Numbered from the stretch's first letter, positions 37,793 through 44,119 are shown. The stretch is 64,000 nt of DNA from Chloroflexota bacterium (GCA_029262735.1 JAJCYY010000090.1:1-64000); one strand, 5' to 3'. Translations and numbers: made by a program. The notes: generated by a model not told the origin, from the sequence alone.

Positions 37793-38089
37793 CTGAACTC
37801 CCATGAACGCCGACCGTCTTGTGAGCCGGGTTTTCGGGCCGCCGATTTCGGACCGGCAGCGTCGTCAGACTAGATTGTGATTGCTCACCAGCAACGCGTC
37901 CAGCCAAAACCACCGGCTCATCGAGACGCCGCCAGCCATTTCGTCACAAGTAGGCGAAATGTTCATACCGGTCTGTCAAGAGACACACGTCTACTGGTCT
38001 CAACCGCGATTCGTTGTGCGTTCTCGGCAAGCATTATTGAGATCAGACCAAACTACCCGTGATAGGTCGAATCCGGTGCTGGTCGGAAC

Positions 38090-41000
38090 TTGTCCGCTCG
38101 AAATGTGGTCGCTGTGCGTCATCTCAGCCCTCAACTGTTCACAGAGATTGCCCTTTCGATGGTGCCCCTTGCCAACGCCCCGACGTGGGTGAAGGCACTG
38201 TGGGTCGAGAAAGAGCTGCAAGAGCGCGGCCTCTGGCAGGACGATGTTTTCGAGCTTGTGCGCCCGTTTCTGGTTACGCCGAAAGGCAGCGGGGAACCGG
38301 CCGCGATTAGCCCCCCGCCAGAACCGGTACCATTGCCCGAACAGGTGGACCTGGGATCTCAGATCGTAGTTTCCACTCCCCAGCAAACTCCCGCCGAGGC
38401 CCGCTGGGCGCCGTCCCCCGATGGTCCCGACGATGAAGAACTCTCAGATGAGGACAATCCGGGCGACTTTGGTGCTGATTCCGGACTGGTCAAGACCCCA
38501 TCCGAGTATCTCAAGTCTGTAGGTTACGACGCAGTATCGGCCAGTTCGGACGGTGTCGATGACGAAGCTGACCACTCACCGCCGGACACCGGACCCGATG
38601 CGGGATCACCGTCACCGGCGCCGAAGCAGTCTGATGCCTCTCTGAACAACAGTTCCGATGAGGAGATCGCTCGCCGGATTAGTGAGCTGACACCTGAGCA
38701 GGCTGAACTTGCGTCCGTCATCCACATGCTCGCCGTGTCAGCACGTTTGGGTGATGCTCCGTCGAGAGAGGAGCCGCAGGCGCAGGATTTTCAGCCTCCG
38801 GAGCCCGATTCGGAGGTCGATCAAGACCCAGGAGAGTTCAGGGCGTCAGATTCGCCGATCGTCACCGATATCGATGCAGTCGAAGCCGAGTCGTCTGCTT
38901 CTACTCAGGCGGCCGCACCGGACGAAGCTGATGATGCTGAACAATCCGAAGATGGCGATTCCTCCAAGCTCGATCGACCGGGGATAGTGCCGTTCCTCGA
39001 ATGGCATGACGACACTGTCGACCTTTCGTCTGAACTTACAGGCAATGCGCAGATCGATGAGATCGAACCGGAACTCCCTGCTGAGCCAGTTTCCGAAATC
39101 AGTGACCACGCCGGAGAGGGGGAAGCACCTGAAGAGACGGTGCAGGCTTCTGAGGATTCCGACGAACAAGGCGACCCGGGCCACAGGATGCCGGGCATGG
39201 CGCCGTTTTCTGGCTGGCTTAAGGCAGCGGAAGGACAGCCAGTCGATCTCCCGCTTCACGAGCCGGAGATTGAGATCGAAGCGGAAATTCCTGCTGAGCC
39301 TGTAGCTCAACTCAGCGGACCTGCTACGGATCAGACTGCTGAGGAAAAGCCTGAGATCAGCGATTCATCCGACGATACGGTCGTGGCTGGCTCCATAGAA
39401 ACTACGCAACCGAAACAGGGCCTCGAACTAACTTTCTGGCACACAAAGCCAGTCCAGCCGCCGGTAGAGTCCGAGAAAATCGATCTGGCAGATGAGCAAA
39501 TTCCGCAGACGAGCGAGGCATCTGACAATCCCGAAATACCGGACAGCTCCGAGTCGAAACAGCCAAAGAAGGGGCTCGAAGTAACGTACTGGCGTACAAA
39601 GCCAGTCCAGCCGCCGGTAGAGTCCGATTCAGTCGATCTGGCGAATGAGCAAATTTCGGAGGCGAGTGAGGCGTCCGACAACCCCGAAATACCGGACGGC
39701 TCCGAGTCGAAACAACCGAAGCCGTGGCTCGAAGTAACTTACTGGCACACAAAGCCAGTCCAGCCGCCGGTTGAGCCCGAAAAAATTGATCAACCGGCTG
39801 AGGAACATCCCGAGGCGAGCGAGGCGTCCGACAACCCCGAAATACCGGATAGCTCCAAGTCGAAACAACCGAAGCCGGGGCTCGAAGTAACTTACTGGCG
39901 AACAAAGCCGGTCCAGCCGCCGGTAGAGCCCGAGTCAGTCGATCTGCCGAAAGTTGACGAGTCGAACCAGAAGCCGTCGCGATCACCCGATCTTGGTTCT
40001 GGAACGAGCGATCCGACAGTCGAAGGTCATTTGACCGTGTCCCCGCCGGTGGCCGAAGCAAAGACAGGACAGGTTGACCTGCCTGAACCTGCCCAGAAGC
40101 CGACGACCGCTAGCTCCGAAAAATCCTCAGAGGCCGTACTCGACAACAGACCCGCGCCCAGCCGAAACGCGCTCACCCGACACCTGACAGCCGCAGAAAC
40201 GGCAGCCGACCGGCAGCCTTTCCCGGCCGGTAGTAAGGGCACGGTCACACCCTCGAATCAAGTTCCGGAACCTGTCACTACTCAGCGTATTGCTGAACCA
40301 GTCCACGAAGATGCAGCGACGGCTGAGACACTTCCGGAACTGGAACCGGCAAAAGAGCAGCAGCGGCCGAGCAAAACCACTGCGAAAAAGAGGTCGGTGC
40401 GAAAGAGCAGAAAATCCAGGAAACCCCGTAAGGCGGCGACCGCCAGCAAGCGAGATCCGAAACCGTCTACAGCAGAGCCTGGCGAGCGCGGCAACACGCT
40501 CGTGAATGCCGAGTTGCGTCGGCAACCGACTGCAATCGCCCCGGTCGTTCCGACGCTGAAACCGGCTGAAGATCAGAGGAAGGTCGACACCGTACCAGCA
40601 GCAGCGATCGCACCCGATCCTGCCTCAGTTAAGACCTCATCGACTGAGGCATCTCCGAGCAAATCACAACCTGTGGCAAAGCAGACGAAACCGAATCGAA
40701 CGGCGTCGAAGAAGAGTTCGCCGAAAGCATCCACAAAGTCGAAACCGTCCACCGCTCGAGTCAAAAAGCCGAAGACCGAAATAATTTCAGATCAACCCGG
40801 ATTGAAAAAAGGGGCTGGAACGCTCGTTGACGCGCTGCCAGGGACACTTCCGACCACTCTGGAAATCGTGGTCGCACCGGCGGAAAAGCCGAAAAACAAG
40901 TTTCCGTCTTCTCCGACACCAGAGCATGTCAAGCGCGAAGCAGGGCCGAAGGCACCGTTGCCAGTAAGTTCAAAACGGGCATCATCCGCAAAATCAGAAA

Positions 41001-42058
41001 AAGCCGCCTCAAAGCCTGTCAAAAAGAGCCTCGCCGCTCAATCGCAAAAGCAAGAGAAAAGCAAAAAATCGCCGACTAGTCCCATCTCATTGCCACCTGC
41101 CAAGATAGATTCAAAGTCGGCAACGCTGACCGACAAGAGCCCGGCTTCACTGTCGCAGAAGCAAGAGAAGAGCAAGAAGTCGCCGACGGGCCCCATCTCA
41201 GTGCCGCCTGCCAAGACAGATTCAAAGGCGTCAACGCCGGTCAAAAAGAGCCTGACAGTACCTTCCTCGAAGCGGGACAAAAGCAAACCAAGTTCATCGG
41301 CACCAACAGCACCTCCCGCGTCTCGACCGGTAGCTAAACCAGTTGCAAAAACTGATCCGAAACCCAAAAAGCTCAAGCAAAAAGATCCGGTAACCCAGTC
41401 GCCTAAACAAGACAAACCCGAAAAGGCATCAGCGACTTCGCGTTCAACAACCTCAACATCGGTACCAGCAGCCAAAATAGAACAGAACGCGCAGCCGTCG
41501 AAGCAAAAGAGTGCTCCTGCGGCGTCTCTAAAGCCAGCAAAACGCAAGAGCCCACGAAAGCCGTCCACACCACCGGCGATTTCAACTTCAGTGACACCTG
41601 TCAAAGTGGCCAAGAGCGCGCAAAAGCCCGAGCGATCAAAGAGCACTCGACTTAAGATTCCCGCAGAGGCCGTTGCGAAATCAAGACCTGCTCGCAAGCC
41701 AAGAACTGCAACCGGCAAAGCCCGAAGAGGGCTGAGCGAACCTACCGCCAGAAAGCTACGGAAGCTCGCCAGTCAGCCAGTCGTTCAACCGAAAAAAGAT
41801 CTGCTGAACAACATCGACGCCGCTGCAATTGCAGACCTCTTTGGGATTCACATCGACACCACTTCCGGCTCGGACCACACACGCCTCCTGTTCTTCGATG
41901 CGGCGCTTAAGGCGCAAAACGGAGACTGGACCGGCAGCCAGGAACGCCTTGAAGCGGCGCTCAAATCCGTCGGCAACTCGCCGCGGTCATGGGTCATGAG
42001 GTCGGCGATTGAGCAGGCGATCAAGATCAACGAGAGGTTGAACAGGCCTGCCGCGTAG
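38090..42058 (+). CDS. Giant charge-segregated low-complexity protein with tandem repeats (novel)
   Basis: 1322 residues; the start (TTG 38090, or GTG 38105/38114) is uncertain. Residues about 1-62 look folded and helical (LFTEIALSMVPLANAPTWVK, then LWVEKELQERGLWQDDVFELV). Residues 63-640 are Asp/Glu/Ser/Pro-rich and acidic. About 770-1235 are Lys/Ser/Pro/Ala-rich and very basic. Residues 1241-1322 are again ordered, with a TPR-like helical look (LLFFDAALKAQNGDWTGSQE). A short aromatic motif recurs six times: at residues 298 and 369 (loosely), then at 444, 495, 546 and 597 at exact 51-residue spacing, read as GLEVTYW followed by TKPVQPPVE. No signal peptide or membrane segment is seen. The reading frame is long, uninterrupted and uses codons like its neighbours. 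The function is unknown; a scaffold or condensate former, or a nucleoid or ribosome-associated polymer, are guesses. Confidence 0.8.
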   Translation: MSARNVVAVRHLSPQLFTEIALSMVPLANAPTWVKALWVEKELQERGLWQDDVFELVRPFLVTPKGSGEPAAISPPPEPVPLPEQVDLGSQIVVSTPQQTPAEARWAPSPDGPDDEELSDEDNPGDFGADSGLVKTPSEYLKSVGYDAVSASSDGVDDEADHSPPDTGPDAGSPSPAPKQSDASLNNSSDEEIARRISELTPEQAELASVIHMLAVSARLGDAPSREEPQAQDFQPPEPDSEVDQDPGEFRASDSPIVTDIDAVEAESSASTQAAAPDEADDAEQSEDGDSSKLDRPGIVPFLEWHDDTVDLSSELTGNAQIDEIEPELPAEPVSEISDHAGEGEAPEETVQASEDSDEQGDPGHRMPGMAPFSGWLKAAEGQPVDLPLHEPEIEIEAEIPAEPVAQLSGPATDQTAEEKPEISDSSDDTVVAGSIETTQPKQGLELTFWHTKPVQPPVESEKIDLADEQIPQTSEASDNPEIPDSSESKQPKKGLEVTYWRTKPVQPPVESDSVDLANEQISEASEASDNPEIPDGSESKQPKPWLEVTYWHTKPVQPPVEPEKIDQPAEEHPEASEASDNPEIPDSSKSKQPKPGLEVTYWRTKPVQPPVEPESVDLPKVDESNQKPSRSPDLGSGTSDPTVEGHLTVSPPVAEAKTGQVDLPEPAQKPTTASSEKSSEAVLDNRPAPSRNALTRHLTAAETAADRQPFPAGSKGTVTPSNQVPEPVTTQRIAEPVHEDAATAETLPELEPAKEQQRPSKTTAKKRSVRKSRKSRKPRKAATASKRDPKPSTAEPGERGNTLVNAELRRQPTAIAPVVPTLKPAEDQRKVDTVPAAAIAPDPASVKTSSTEASPSKSQPVAKQTKPNRTASKKSSPKASTKSKPSTARVKKPKTEIISDQPGLKKGAGTLVDALPGTLPTTLEIVVAPAEKPKNKFPSSPTPEHVKREAGPKAPLPVSSKRASSAKSEKAASKPVKKSLAAQSQKQEKSKKSPTSPISLPPAKIDSKSATLTDKSPASLSQKQEKSKKSPTGPISVPPAKTDSKASTPVKKSLTVPSSKRDKSKPSSSAPTAPPASRPVAKPVAKTDPKPKKLKQKDPVTQSPKQDKPEKASATSRSTTSTSVPAAKIEQNAQPSKQKSAPAASLKPAKRKSPRKPSTPPAISTSVTPVKVAKSAQKPERSKSTRLKIPAEAVAKSRPARKPRTATGKARRGLSEPTARKLRKLASQPVVQPKKDLLNNIDAAAIADLFGIHIDTTSGSDHTRLLFFDAALKAQNGDWTGSQERLEAALKSVGNSPRSWVMRSAIEQAIKINERLNRPAA
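39419..39952 (+). repeat. 153-bp tandem repeat, 3.5 copies, in the giant protein gene
   Basis: Copies begin at 39419, 39572, 39725 and 39878, exactly 153 bp apart; the last is partial. Each full copy encodes 51 residues: GLEVTYW, then TKPVQPPVE, VDL-like, EASDNPEIPD and SKQPK. Copies differ at a few positions, so the array is not a fresh duplication. Confidence 0.9.
41042..41263 (+). repeat. 111-bp repeat in the Lys-rich half of the giant protein gene
   Basis: Two copies (starts 41042 and 41153) encode about 37 residues each, of form SQKQEKSKKSPT followed by PPAK and DSK. Degenerate further copies follow downstream (SKRDKSKPSSS, SPKQDKPEKAS). Such K/S/P repeats resemble histone-H1-like tails in composition only. 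Confidence 0.75.
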
Positions 42059-42079: not shown

Positions 42080-42925
42080 TCAGTCGAGAAGCGTGCGCAC
42101 CTGATCTCCGTGTGCACCGAGCATGTTCAGCGCATTCTCTGACGTCCGCTCAGCTACCTCTTCGATCGAGATCCCGCGGACCTCAGACAGGCACTCTGCG
42201 ACGCTCAACAGGTGCCGCGGCTCGGTCCATTTCATCCGGTCCTTTTTGAACGGCTGCGGGTACGAATCCGTCTCCAGGACGATCCTCTCCATTGGAAGCC
42301 ACGCCGCAACCACCTGCAACCTCTTCAGCCGCAACAGTGGCCTTGCGAACGACACCATAAACCCCGCATCCAACACGGCTCCCGCTGTGGCGATGTCACC
42401 CTGGAAGTAGTGCGCCGCTCCGCCATTCGCACCGGCCGAGGTCTCCGCAATGATCCTCAGCGCAACAGGCCACGCTGACGCCGCGTCAAGATCGTCGCCC
42501 GGCTCTCGCACATGGAAGACGACGGGAAGCAGCTGCCGTTTCGCGATCTCGATCTGCTGCCGAAACGCCTCATCCTGCACATCCACCCACGGACGGCCCG
42601 ATTCAGTCGGCCGGGCGAGCACGTGAGGTTGATGATCAATACCGACTTCACTCATCACAACGACGGCGTCCCGTGATGCCATCTCATCCAACCCCGTGAG
42701 GTCATCGTCAGTCAACGGGCCGCTCAGGTCGGTCGGGTGAACGCCAACGCCTGCGAAAAGCATGGGATGCCGATCTGCCAGCTCGACGCAACGCACGCTG
42801 TCGTCCACCGTGACTCCGGCGGTGATGATTGCGCCGACACCAGCTTCCTCAGCACGAGAATGGATGCCCTCCAGCTCTTCTGGAGCGTGCTGCTGTATAT
42901 GTGCATGAACATCGATCAGCTTCAA
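42080..42925 (-). CDS. TatD-family metal-dependent hydrolase
   Basis: 281 residues from the TTG at 42925. The TTG overlaps the TGA of the upstream flavodoxin gene (TTGA), which fixes the start; the frame extends to 43084 without family sequence. Motifs are IDVHAHIQ (H-x-H), VVMSEVGID (Glu), VVFHVREPGDD (His), GAAHYFQGD and VLETDSYPQPF (Asp). TatD proteins are amidohydrolase-fold nucleases or hydrolases; this member is divergent, and the substrate is unknown. Co-transcription with two flavodoxin-domain genes is unusual. Confidence 0.82.
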   Translation of the reverse strand: MKLIDVHAHIQQHAPEELEGIHSRAEEAGVGAIITAGVTVDDSVRCVELADRHPMLFAGVGVHPTDLSGPLTDDDLTGLDEMASRDAVVVMSEVGIDHQPHVLARPTESGRPWVDVQDEAFRQQIEIAKRQLLPVVFHVREPGDDLDAASAWPVALRIIAETSAGANGGAAHYFQGDIATAGAVLDAGFMVSFARPLLRLKRLQVVAAWLPMERIVLETDSYPQPFKKDRMKWTEPRHLLSVAECLSEVRGISIEEVAERTSENALNMLGAHGDQVRTLLD

Positions 42926-43485
42926 GTTGCCTGCTCTCCCGGCCTGGGCGCGGCATTTGTGCCGGTTTCGTTCAACGCATCGGCAAACAGCTCTCCAACG
43001 TGTTGTGCCCAGCTGCGAATCGCCTCCCACGACCGGTGGTCGCCCCGGGGCGTACCCGCCATCCTGTCCAGCAGCCGCAGGCAAAATGGCAGGTTGTCCC
43101 TGTCAAACGAACCGTGGAAAAGCGCCGTTGAGAGAGGGTTGAGACCCGGTGCGTGTTCGCGAAGAGTCTCAACGATCTCCTCGTGCTCACGGAGCGCCGA
43201 TTTCGGGTTCTTCACGCCAAGCATCCCGGTCGTGAACAGTGCTACCGGCATGGCAGACAGGCGCTCGGCATTGGCCATGACAAGCAGCACCGCGTCAGGC
43301 AGCCAGTTTCGCCCGTACGATGGCGCGCCGACGACCAGCGCATCGTACTTCGCCACCTGGATCTGGGGTCCTGCAACCAGCACGTCAACATCAAAGCCCG
43401 CGGCAGTCAGTTCATCGCCAACCGCAGCGGCGACCTCGGCGGTTGAGCCGAACCTGCTCGCATATGTGACAAGAATCCGTGGCAC
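42922..43485 (-). CDS. Flavodoxin-domain protein (copy 1, HemG/menaquinone-protoporphyrinogen-oxidase-like)
   Basis: 187 residues, GTG start at 43485. The FMN phosphate loop is ILVTYASRFGSTAEVA (T/S-x-T/S-x-G-x-T pattern). A second loop is VVGAPSYGRNWLPDA, and the third, FMN-contacting part, is VALFTTGMLG. It has the HemG-type form and ends with a long helical C-terminus. It would carry electrons through FMN; the partner is unknown. It is a paralog of the gene at 43607-44119 and overlaps tatD by 4 bases. Confidence 0.82.
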   Translation of the reverse strand: MPRILVTYASRFGSTAEVAAAVGDELTAAGFDVDVLVAGPQIQVAKYDALVVGAPSYGRNWLPDAVLLVMANAERLSAMPVALFTTGMLGVKNPKSALREHEEIVETLREHAPGLNPLSTALFHGSFDRDNLPFCLRLLDRMAGTPRGDHRSWEAIRSWAQHVGELFADALNETGTNAAPRPGEQAT

Positions 43486-43606
43486 ATCGCCAGTCTACGG
43501 GTTGTGGGAGGAGGCAGCCGCGGCACGGCCAGCGCTACGAAGATTTTGCTCACCGGCAAGGCTAGAAACCCCGGTCCGGCCCGCGCCGACGCAGAAACTG
43601 TCGGCA

Positions 43607-44119
43607 TCAGGCAGCGAGTCGTTCCTGCAGACCCGTTGCCCAGGCGCGGACGGCGTCCCAGTCACGGTAGTCACCGGTCGGAGCGTTTTTCCGGTCCATC
43701 AGCTTGCGAGACACGAAATCGACCTTGTCCGGGTCGTACGCACCGGCAAAGATGGCATGCGAAACAGGCTTCATGCCGGGCGCACGAATACACGCAAGTT
43801 CGACTGCCCCCTCGTGCTCACCCTTTGCCCCGGCCATGTCGTGTGAAGGCAACATTCCGACGGTAAACACGGCAACTCGCTTGTTCATCAAGTCAAGCTC
43901 GTGAGCCTCGAAAAACGTAAGTACATCTTCTCGAAGCGCACCACCATATATGGGTGAGCCCACGACGATGAGATCGTAGCCGGCAACGTGTTTCACAGAT
44001 GTCGCCTCGCTCACCGAGGTTTCCAGGCCTGCGCCGCCCAGCGCCTCGCCAATCGCCTCTGCGATCTCCTTTGTCACGCCCGTCCGTGACGAATACGTTA
44101 CGAGAACCGTGTGTGCCAT
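43607..44119 (-). CDS. Flavodoxin-domain protein (copy 2)
   Basis: 170 residues, ATG at 44119 with a G-rich site (GGGGGGCGG) close upstream. FMN loops are VLVTYSSRTGVTKEIAEAIG, VVGSPIYGGALREDV and VAVFTVGMLPSHD. Copy 1 shows the same layout and shares the C-terminal pattern of a GD-like turn plus W-x-A-x-R-x-WA (GDYRDWDAVRAWA here, GDHRSWEAIRSWA there). The pair therefore arose by duplication. Gap to copy 1: 121 nt. Confidence 0.82.
   Translation of the reverse strand: MAHTVLVTYSSRTGVTKEIAEAIGEALGGAGLETSVSEATSVKHVAGYDLIVVGSPIYGGALREDVLTFFEAHELDLMNKRVAVFTVGMLPSHDMAGAKGEHEGAVELACIRAPGMKPVSHAIFAGAYDPDKVDFVSRKLMDRKNAPTGDYRDWDAVRAWATGLQERLAA

Follow-up and report, generated by a model that had tools for sequence, protein, structure and literature searches.

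The gene and its neighbourhood

The window analysed here is a 64,000-nucleotide stretch of DNA from a Chloroflexota bacterium, whose assembly comprises 4.29 Mb in 115 contigs. It contains an open frame of 1322 codons at 38090-42058 on the plus strand, which is real and protein-coding. The GTG at 38114, eight codons 3' of the listed TTG, aligns with the MRRL start (ATG) of the three other species in which the N-terminus is retained, and the start was therefore moved to this position. The coding sequence is thus likely to be a single gene running from 38114 to 42058 (plus strand) and encoding 1314 amino acids followed by a stop. Residue numbers below refer to this protein.

The gene and pepP (aminopeptidase P) are divergent, and tatD, on the other side, is convergent with the gene, so that it does not form an operon with either of them. 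The mechanically called tatD frame (42080-43084, minus strand) starts too early: its match to Pfam TatD does not begin until residue 57, and the part upstream of the match overlaps a flavodoxin-like frame (42922-43485), which suggests that tatD probably starts near 42919. Within 42922-44119 (minus strand) a flavodoxin-like frame adjoins tatD, and there are two similar frames in the window. In two other genera of the family (L045 and L046), tatD is likewise preceded by at least one flavodoxin-like frame.

Upstream of the gene, a possible footprint of the form TGGT...CGCGATTC (37993-38013, plus strand) lies about 100 bp before the start, and is common to four species with the same locus. Its best 20-column block has 12 invariant columns, compared to 20% of ungapped columns overall. 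A second short block, ATTGTGA (37872-37884), is located between pepP and the gene and is common to the four species that share the locus. Both blocks are possible regulatory sites.

The sequence-only reading knew of no bacterial family resembling this protein, and database searches agree with it. The whole protein has no credible match in Pfam, NCBIfam or PHROGs, and the family scans of the whole protein contain no match to LysM. The two ends were also searched separately by profile methods, again with no credible family match: neither the relatives nor the N-terminal head gave a Pfam match, the PDB profile search with the N-terminal head was empty, the Pfam scan of the C-terminal domain gave weak matches that include neither PopZ nor TPR, and the NCBIfam scan of six C-terminal domains gave no match to FimV. 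The C-terminal domain does match PDB profiles, mostly of designed helical-repeat proteins, which indicates a helical-repeat-like pattern and nothing more. Membership in a known family was rejected on the basis of these searches.

Relatives and conserved ordered pieces

Homologues were found only within the same genus. There are six members (the window protein and those of genomes G002 to G006), all from fragmented draft assemblies of variable completeness. Genomes of the same family (76), of the class (393) and of the phylum (400) were searched with a profile of the N-terminal head, and the 76 and 393 also with a profile of the C-terminal domain; both profiles returned members of the same genus only. 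No homologue is present in 69 genomes from other genera of the same family. Viral contigs and plasmids gave no match to N-terminal queries, and in genomes from seven other genera no open frame of such composition stood out in the vicinity of tatD. The gene was not found in G001, an assembly from which pepP and tatD are missing too, so this absence is uninformative.

The position between pepP and tatD noted by the earlier reading is shared by most of the relatives. The order pepP-gene-tatD is present in G003, G005 (where the homologue has 719 residues) and G006, and in G004 the homologue is cut by the contig start, with tatD adjacent and the other side off the contig. In G002, however, the gene (L014, 4650-7049, plus strand; 800 residues) is elsewhere, with neighbours that include sulfatase-like and hydroxyacid-dehydrogenase-like frames. 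Both of its ends are kept there, which suggests that the gene acts as a self-contained unit.

Two relatives are irregular. The G003 homologue (L017, 8326-10431, minus strand) has 667 residues from one candidate ATG and has no N-terminal head, a copy of which was not found anywhere in the G003 genome (87% complete). The G006 homologue (L016, 7526-10350, minus strand) is split into a frame of 823 residues and a frame of 173 residues carrying the C-terminal domain, the frameshift being between the basic half described below and the C-terminal domain. These irregularities may be real or may be assembly errors.

Three pieces of the protein are conserved and predicted to be ordered. The N-terminal head (residues 1-55; 38114-38278, plus strand) is 73-89% identical in four species. 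It is modelled as three short helices, at residues 6-15, 24-37 and 45-53, with low confidence (pLDDT block means of 50-73). The second piece is an internal helix, ELTPEQAELASVIHMLAVSARLG (residues 190-212; 38681-38749, plus strand), which is also represented by the sequence LTPEQAELASVIHMLAVSAR and by the pattern LTPEQAELASxxHxLAVSxR. It is 58-76% identical, and is modelled as a helix at 194-212 (pLDDT block means of 64-67). Between these two pieces there is a shorter conserved stretch, IVVSxPxQTPxEAKW (residues 84-105; 38363-38428, plus strand), in which V86, S87, P89 and E95 are invariant in four species. Residues 56-223 taken as a whole are much less conserved, with an identity of 26-42% among species.

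The third piece is the C-terminal domain (residues 1231-1314; 41804-42055, plus strand), which is 36-57% identical in all six species. The prediction is firmer here than for the head, with four helices, a pLDDT of 76.8 and a pTM of 0.67. The model contains a helix pair with flanking helices, and Foldseek matches it to PcrH and SycD with a probability of 0.98-1.00 and 1.2-1.5 Å over 52-53 residues, though no Foldseek match has an E value below 0.3. Other helical bundles, MIT among them, give matches similar to those of the TPR proteins, and the model is therefore only weakly suggestive of a TPR-like helix pair.

In all three pieces pN is well below pS (0.08-0.20 against 0.68-0.93 in the head, 0.16-0.24 against 0.63-0.94 in the internal helix, and 0.26-0.41 against 0.52-0.82 in the C-terminal domain); synonymous sites are often saturated, and the values are read as strong purifying selection, with no exact ratios given. 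The lack of conservation that would have counted against the sequence-only reading is thus not seen in the ends. The headless G003 homologue, the frameshift in G006 and the restriction of all matches to one genus could be taken as signs of a non-functional gene, either a spurious frame or one in decay. Several species nevertheless have long frames at this locus, and together with the selection test, which largely refutes this explanation, they make it very improbable.

Charge order and repeats in the middle of the protein

Between the ends lies a long middle region with two halves of opposite charge. The acidic half (residues 61-744; 38294-40345, plus strand) has 684 residues rich in Asp, Glu, Ser and Pro, with a net charge of about -106, and contains every tryptophan of the middle; in residues 56-650, Asp and Glu together make up 23% and Pro 14%. 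The basic half (residues 745-1230; 40346-41803, plus strand) has 486 residues rich in Lys, Pro, Ala and Ser, including 84 Lys and 69 Pro, with a net charge of about +80 and almost no aromatics. In a Uversky plot of mean hydropathy against net charge, both halves are placed on the disordered side of the boundary, and the two ends on the ordered side. The layout described by the sequence-only reading, an acidic block followed by a basic block between small ordered ends, is therefore borne out by composition and charge.

The charges are segregated to an extreme degree. The sequence charge decoration (SCD) of the middle is -87, compared to +2.2 (sd 1.9) in composition-preserving shuffles, and that of the whole chain is -77.5, compared to 3.1 (sd 1.5) in shuffles. 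The six members, whether complete or partial, are all more segregated than their shuffles; such segregation is not seen in the separately framed 173-residue C-terminal piece of G006. Aromatic residues follow the same division: pooled over five species, there are 65 in 1900 residues of the acidic halves and 4 in 1533 residues of the basic halves (Fisher p = 7e-13).

This layout has persisted while the sequence has been rewritten. Among members the middle ranges in length between about 560 and 1170 residues, with complete turnover of its sequence, tandem repeats included, and BLAST between the middles of different species finds similarity only in the N-proximal part, as far as the internal helix. 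In five of the six members the order of a tryptophan-containing acidic half followed by a basic Lys/Pro/Ala/Ser-rich half is kept even though the sequences cannot be aligned. The exception is G002, where the middle is acidic at first and then has an Ala/Glu-rich stretch, with a net charge of +7, in place of the basic half; judged by its composition this segment is probably helical or a coiled coil. A strongly basic tail is therefore not universal.

The repeats in the acidic half proved to be different from what had been proposed, namely a single aromatic motif recurring six times. There are two separate repeats. The first has two copies with the pattern PGxxPFxxW...EIExExPAEPV (residues 289-341 and 360-412; 38978-39349, plus strand; z of 9.5 against shuffles), spaced 71 residues apart, with tryptophans at W297 and W368. 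The second is a tandem array of four units of 51 residues, with the motif GLEVTYW[HR]TKPVQPPVE (39395-39955, plus strand). The copies of the first show no clear resemblance to those of the second (z of -0.5 to 3.0). A more general motif, W...P..E[IV], was considered as a short linear motif of the whole family and rejected, as it reaches significance only in G003, and weakly there (p 0.014).

The spacing of exactly 51 residues does hold for the four GLEVTYW copies, at W442, W493, W544 and W595. It results from a tandem duplication of 153 bp (39407-39946), whose copies are 74-86% identical at the nucleotide level, and the exact spacing is therefore no evidence of a distance designed for stickers. 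The copies differ mainly at synonymous sites, with a pooled pN/pS of 0.44, which implies that the protein motif has been kept since duplication. The array was found in none of the relatives. The idea of regularly spaced stickers as a working device is not upheld, given an array of two plus four copies that is derived by duplication and found in no relative. Another tandem repeat, of 111 bp (37 residues), lies inside the basic half (41009-41287, plus strand).

Such a chain could be a condensate former, in which the acidic half of one chain would attract the basic half of its neighbour, tryptophans in the acidic half would add cohesion, and the heads would recruit clients into a membraneless body. 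This is suggested by the extreme charge segregation and by the confinement of aromatics to the acidic half in five species. It is also reasonable by analogy, because segregated charges can drive condensation in charge-block proteins such as Ki-67 (PMC9106583). Like the present protein, the Ki-67 repeats and NPM1 are disordered chains whose charge blocks alternate or are segregated (PMC9106583). However, those are eukaryotic proteins with blocks of about 30-40 residues, compared to hundreds in this bacterial one, and no homology is indicated. A segregated chain may also fold back on itself rather than condense, the regular spacing of the stickers is simply a product of duplication, and the basic half is replaced in G002. 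A condensate former is rather unlikely.

Alternatively, the basic half may bind nucleic acid or ribosomes in the manner of a histone-H1-like tail; the acidic half would then regulate it, and the ends would link it to another factor. Lys/Pro/Ala-rich low-complexity basic segments occur in bacteria, as in the histone-H1-like tail of AlgP. Compared to tails of the AlgP type, the basic half here has a lower density of lysine, has Ser and Thr mixed in, and is part of a chain that also has an acidic half and two ordered ends. Its size and charge fit such a role, as do the net charges of +28 to +52 in four relatives. It has no known binding motif or Pfam match, however, and the Ala/Glu-rich counterpart in G002, with its low net charge, speaks against nucleic-acid binding by this half as a universal feature. 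This role seems improbable.

The middle might instead be a neutral spacer, in which only the ends matter and the rest is a fast-growing, repeat-expanding linker with no function beyond its length. The twofold range of lengths, the complete turnover of sequence, the tandem repeats and the probable coiled-coil replacement in G002 are what such a linker would look like. The retention of charge order and aromatic placement in five of the six species, and the low pN/pS among the four repeat copies, are not, and a purely neutral spacer is also improbable.

A possible two-headed scaffold

Conserved ends on either side of a middle that is rewritten while its charge layout is kept form the pattern expected of a scaffold or tether. 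The best explanation is therefore, tentatively and with confidence just short of even, a two-headed scaffold or tether of the cytoplasm, with a plan similar to that of PopZ or of the cytoplasmic part of HubP/FimV and homologous to neither. The three-helix N-terminal head and the internal helix would most likely bind one conserved partner, and the TPR-like C-terminal domain would bind another partner or itself. The long middle would be a disordered arm between these two ordered heads, its acidic, Trp-bearing half and its basic half being selected for bulk properties (charge order, flexibility and reach) and not for sequence. Partner binding, cytoplasmic location and scaffolding are all inferred. 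No hydrophobic stretch is suitable for a transmembrane segment (the peak 19-residue hydropathy is 1.18 in the window protein and 0.49-1.37 across the family), and hence no transmembrane helix is indicated. It would be a speculative addition to this plan that the two opposite halves coacervate with each other, or that the basic half binds nucleic acid or ribosomes.

PopZ, the polar organiser of Alphaproteobacteria, has an N-terminal client-binding helix, an acidic Pro-rich disordered region and a C-terminal helical oligomerisation region (PMC9512792). The same succession of helical, acidic Pro-rich disordered and helical regions is seen here, with the reservation that the N-terminal model is of low confidence, and both proteins have a narrow taxonomic range (PMC9512792). 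There are also clear differences. No sequence match to PopZ families was found in Pfam or the PDB, the disordered region of PopZ has 78 residues compared to a protein of 1314 residues here, the large basic half has no counterpart in the described plan of PopZ, and the host belongs to the Chloroflexota. In HubP/FimV proteins, a long acidic region in the cytoplasm carries repeats that differ greatly between close species, and there is a TPR-like domain at the C-terminus (PMC12918733). The acidic half is likewise long, repeat-bearing and fast-changing, and its location is presumed to be cytoplasmic. In contrast to HubP/FimV, the present protein has no periplasmic LysM domain, transmembrane helix or FimV match, and it has a large basic half.

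Some observations count against the two-headed scaffold. At least one species, G003, has lost or replaced the N-terminal head, and the model of this head (pLDDT of about 50-73) is of low confidence, too uncertain for a search by fold. The middle may also be a neutral spacer. A more specific proposal, which we regard as rather doubtful, is that the protein represents a new organiser family of one Chloroflexota genus, namely an acidic-basic diblock forming a membraneless hub that gathers clients via its highly conserved three-helix head.

The protein has no annotation and is confined to one lineage, and it allows selection on charge order to be told apart from selection on sequence. Its middle has been rewritten between species of a single genus, while the acidic-then-basic layout and the placement of aromatics persist. 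If the protein is indeed a scaffold, it would represent a PopZ-like solution in Chloroflexota, and would offer a natural way of testing whether function can reside in charge blocks alone.
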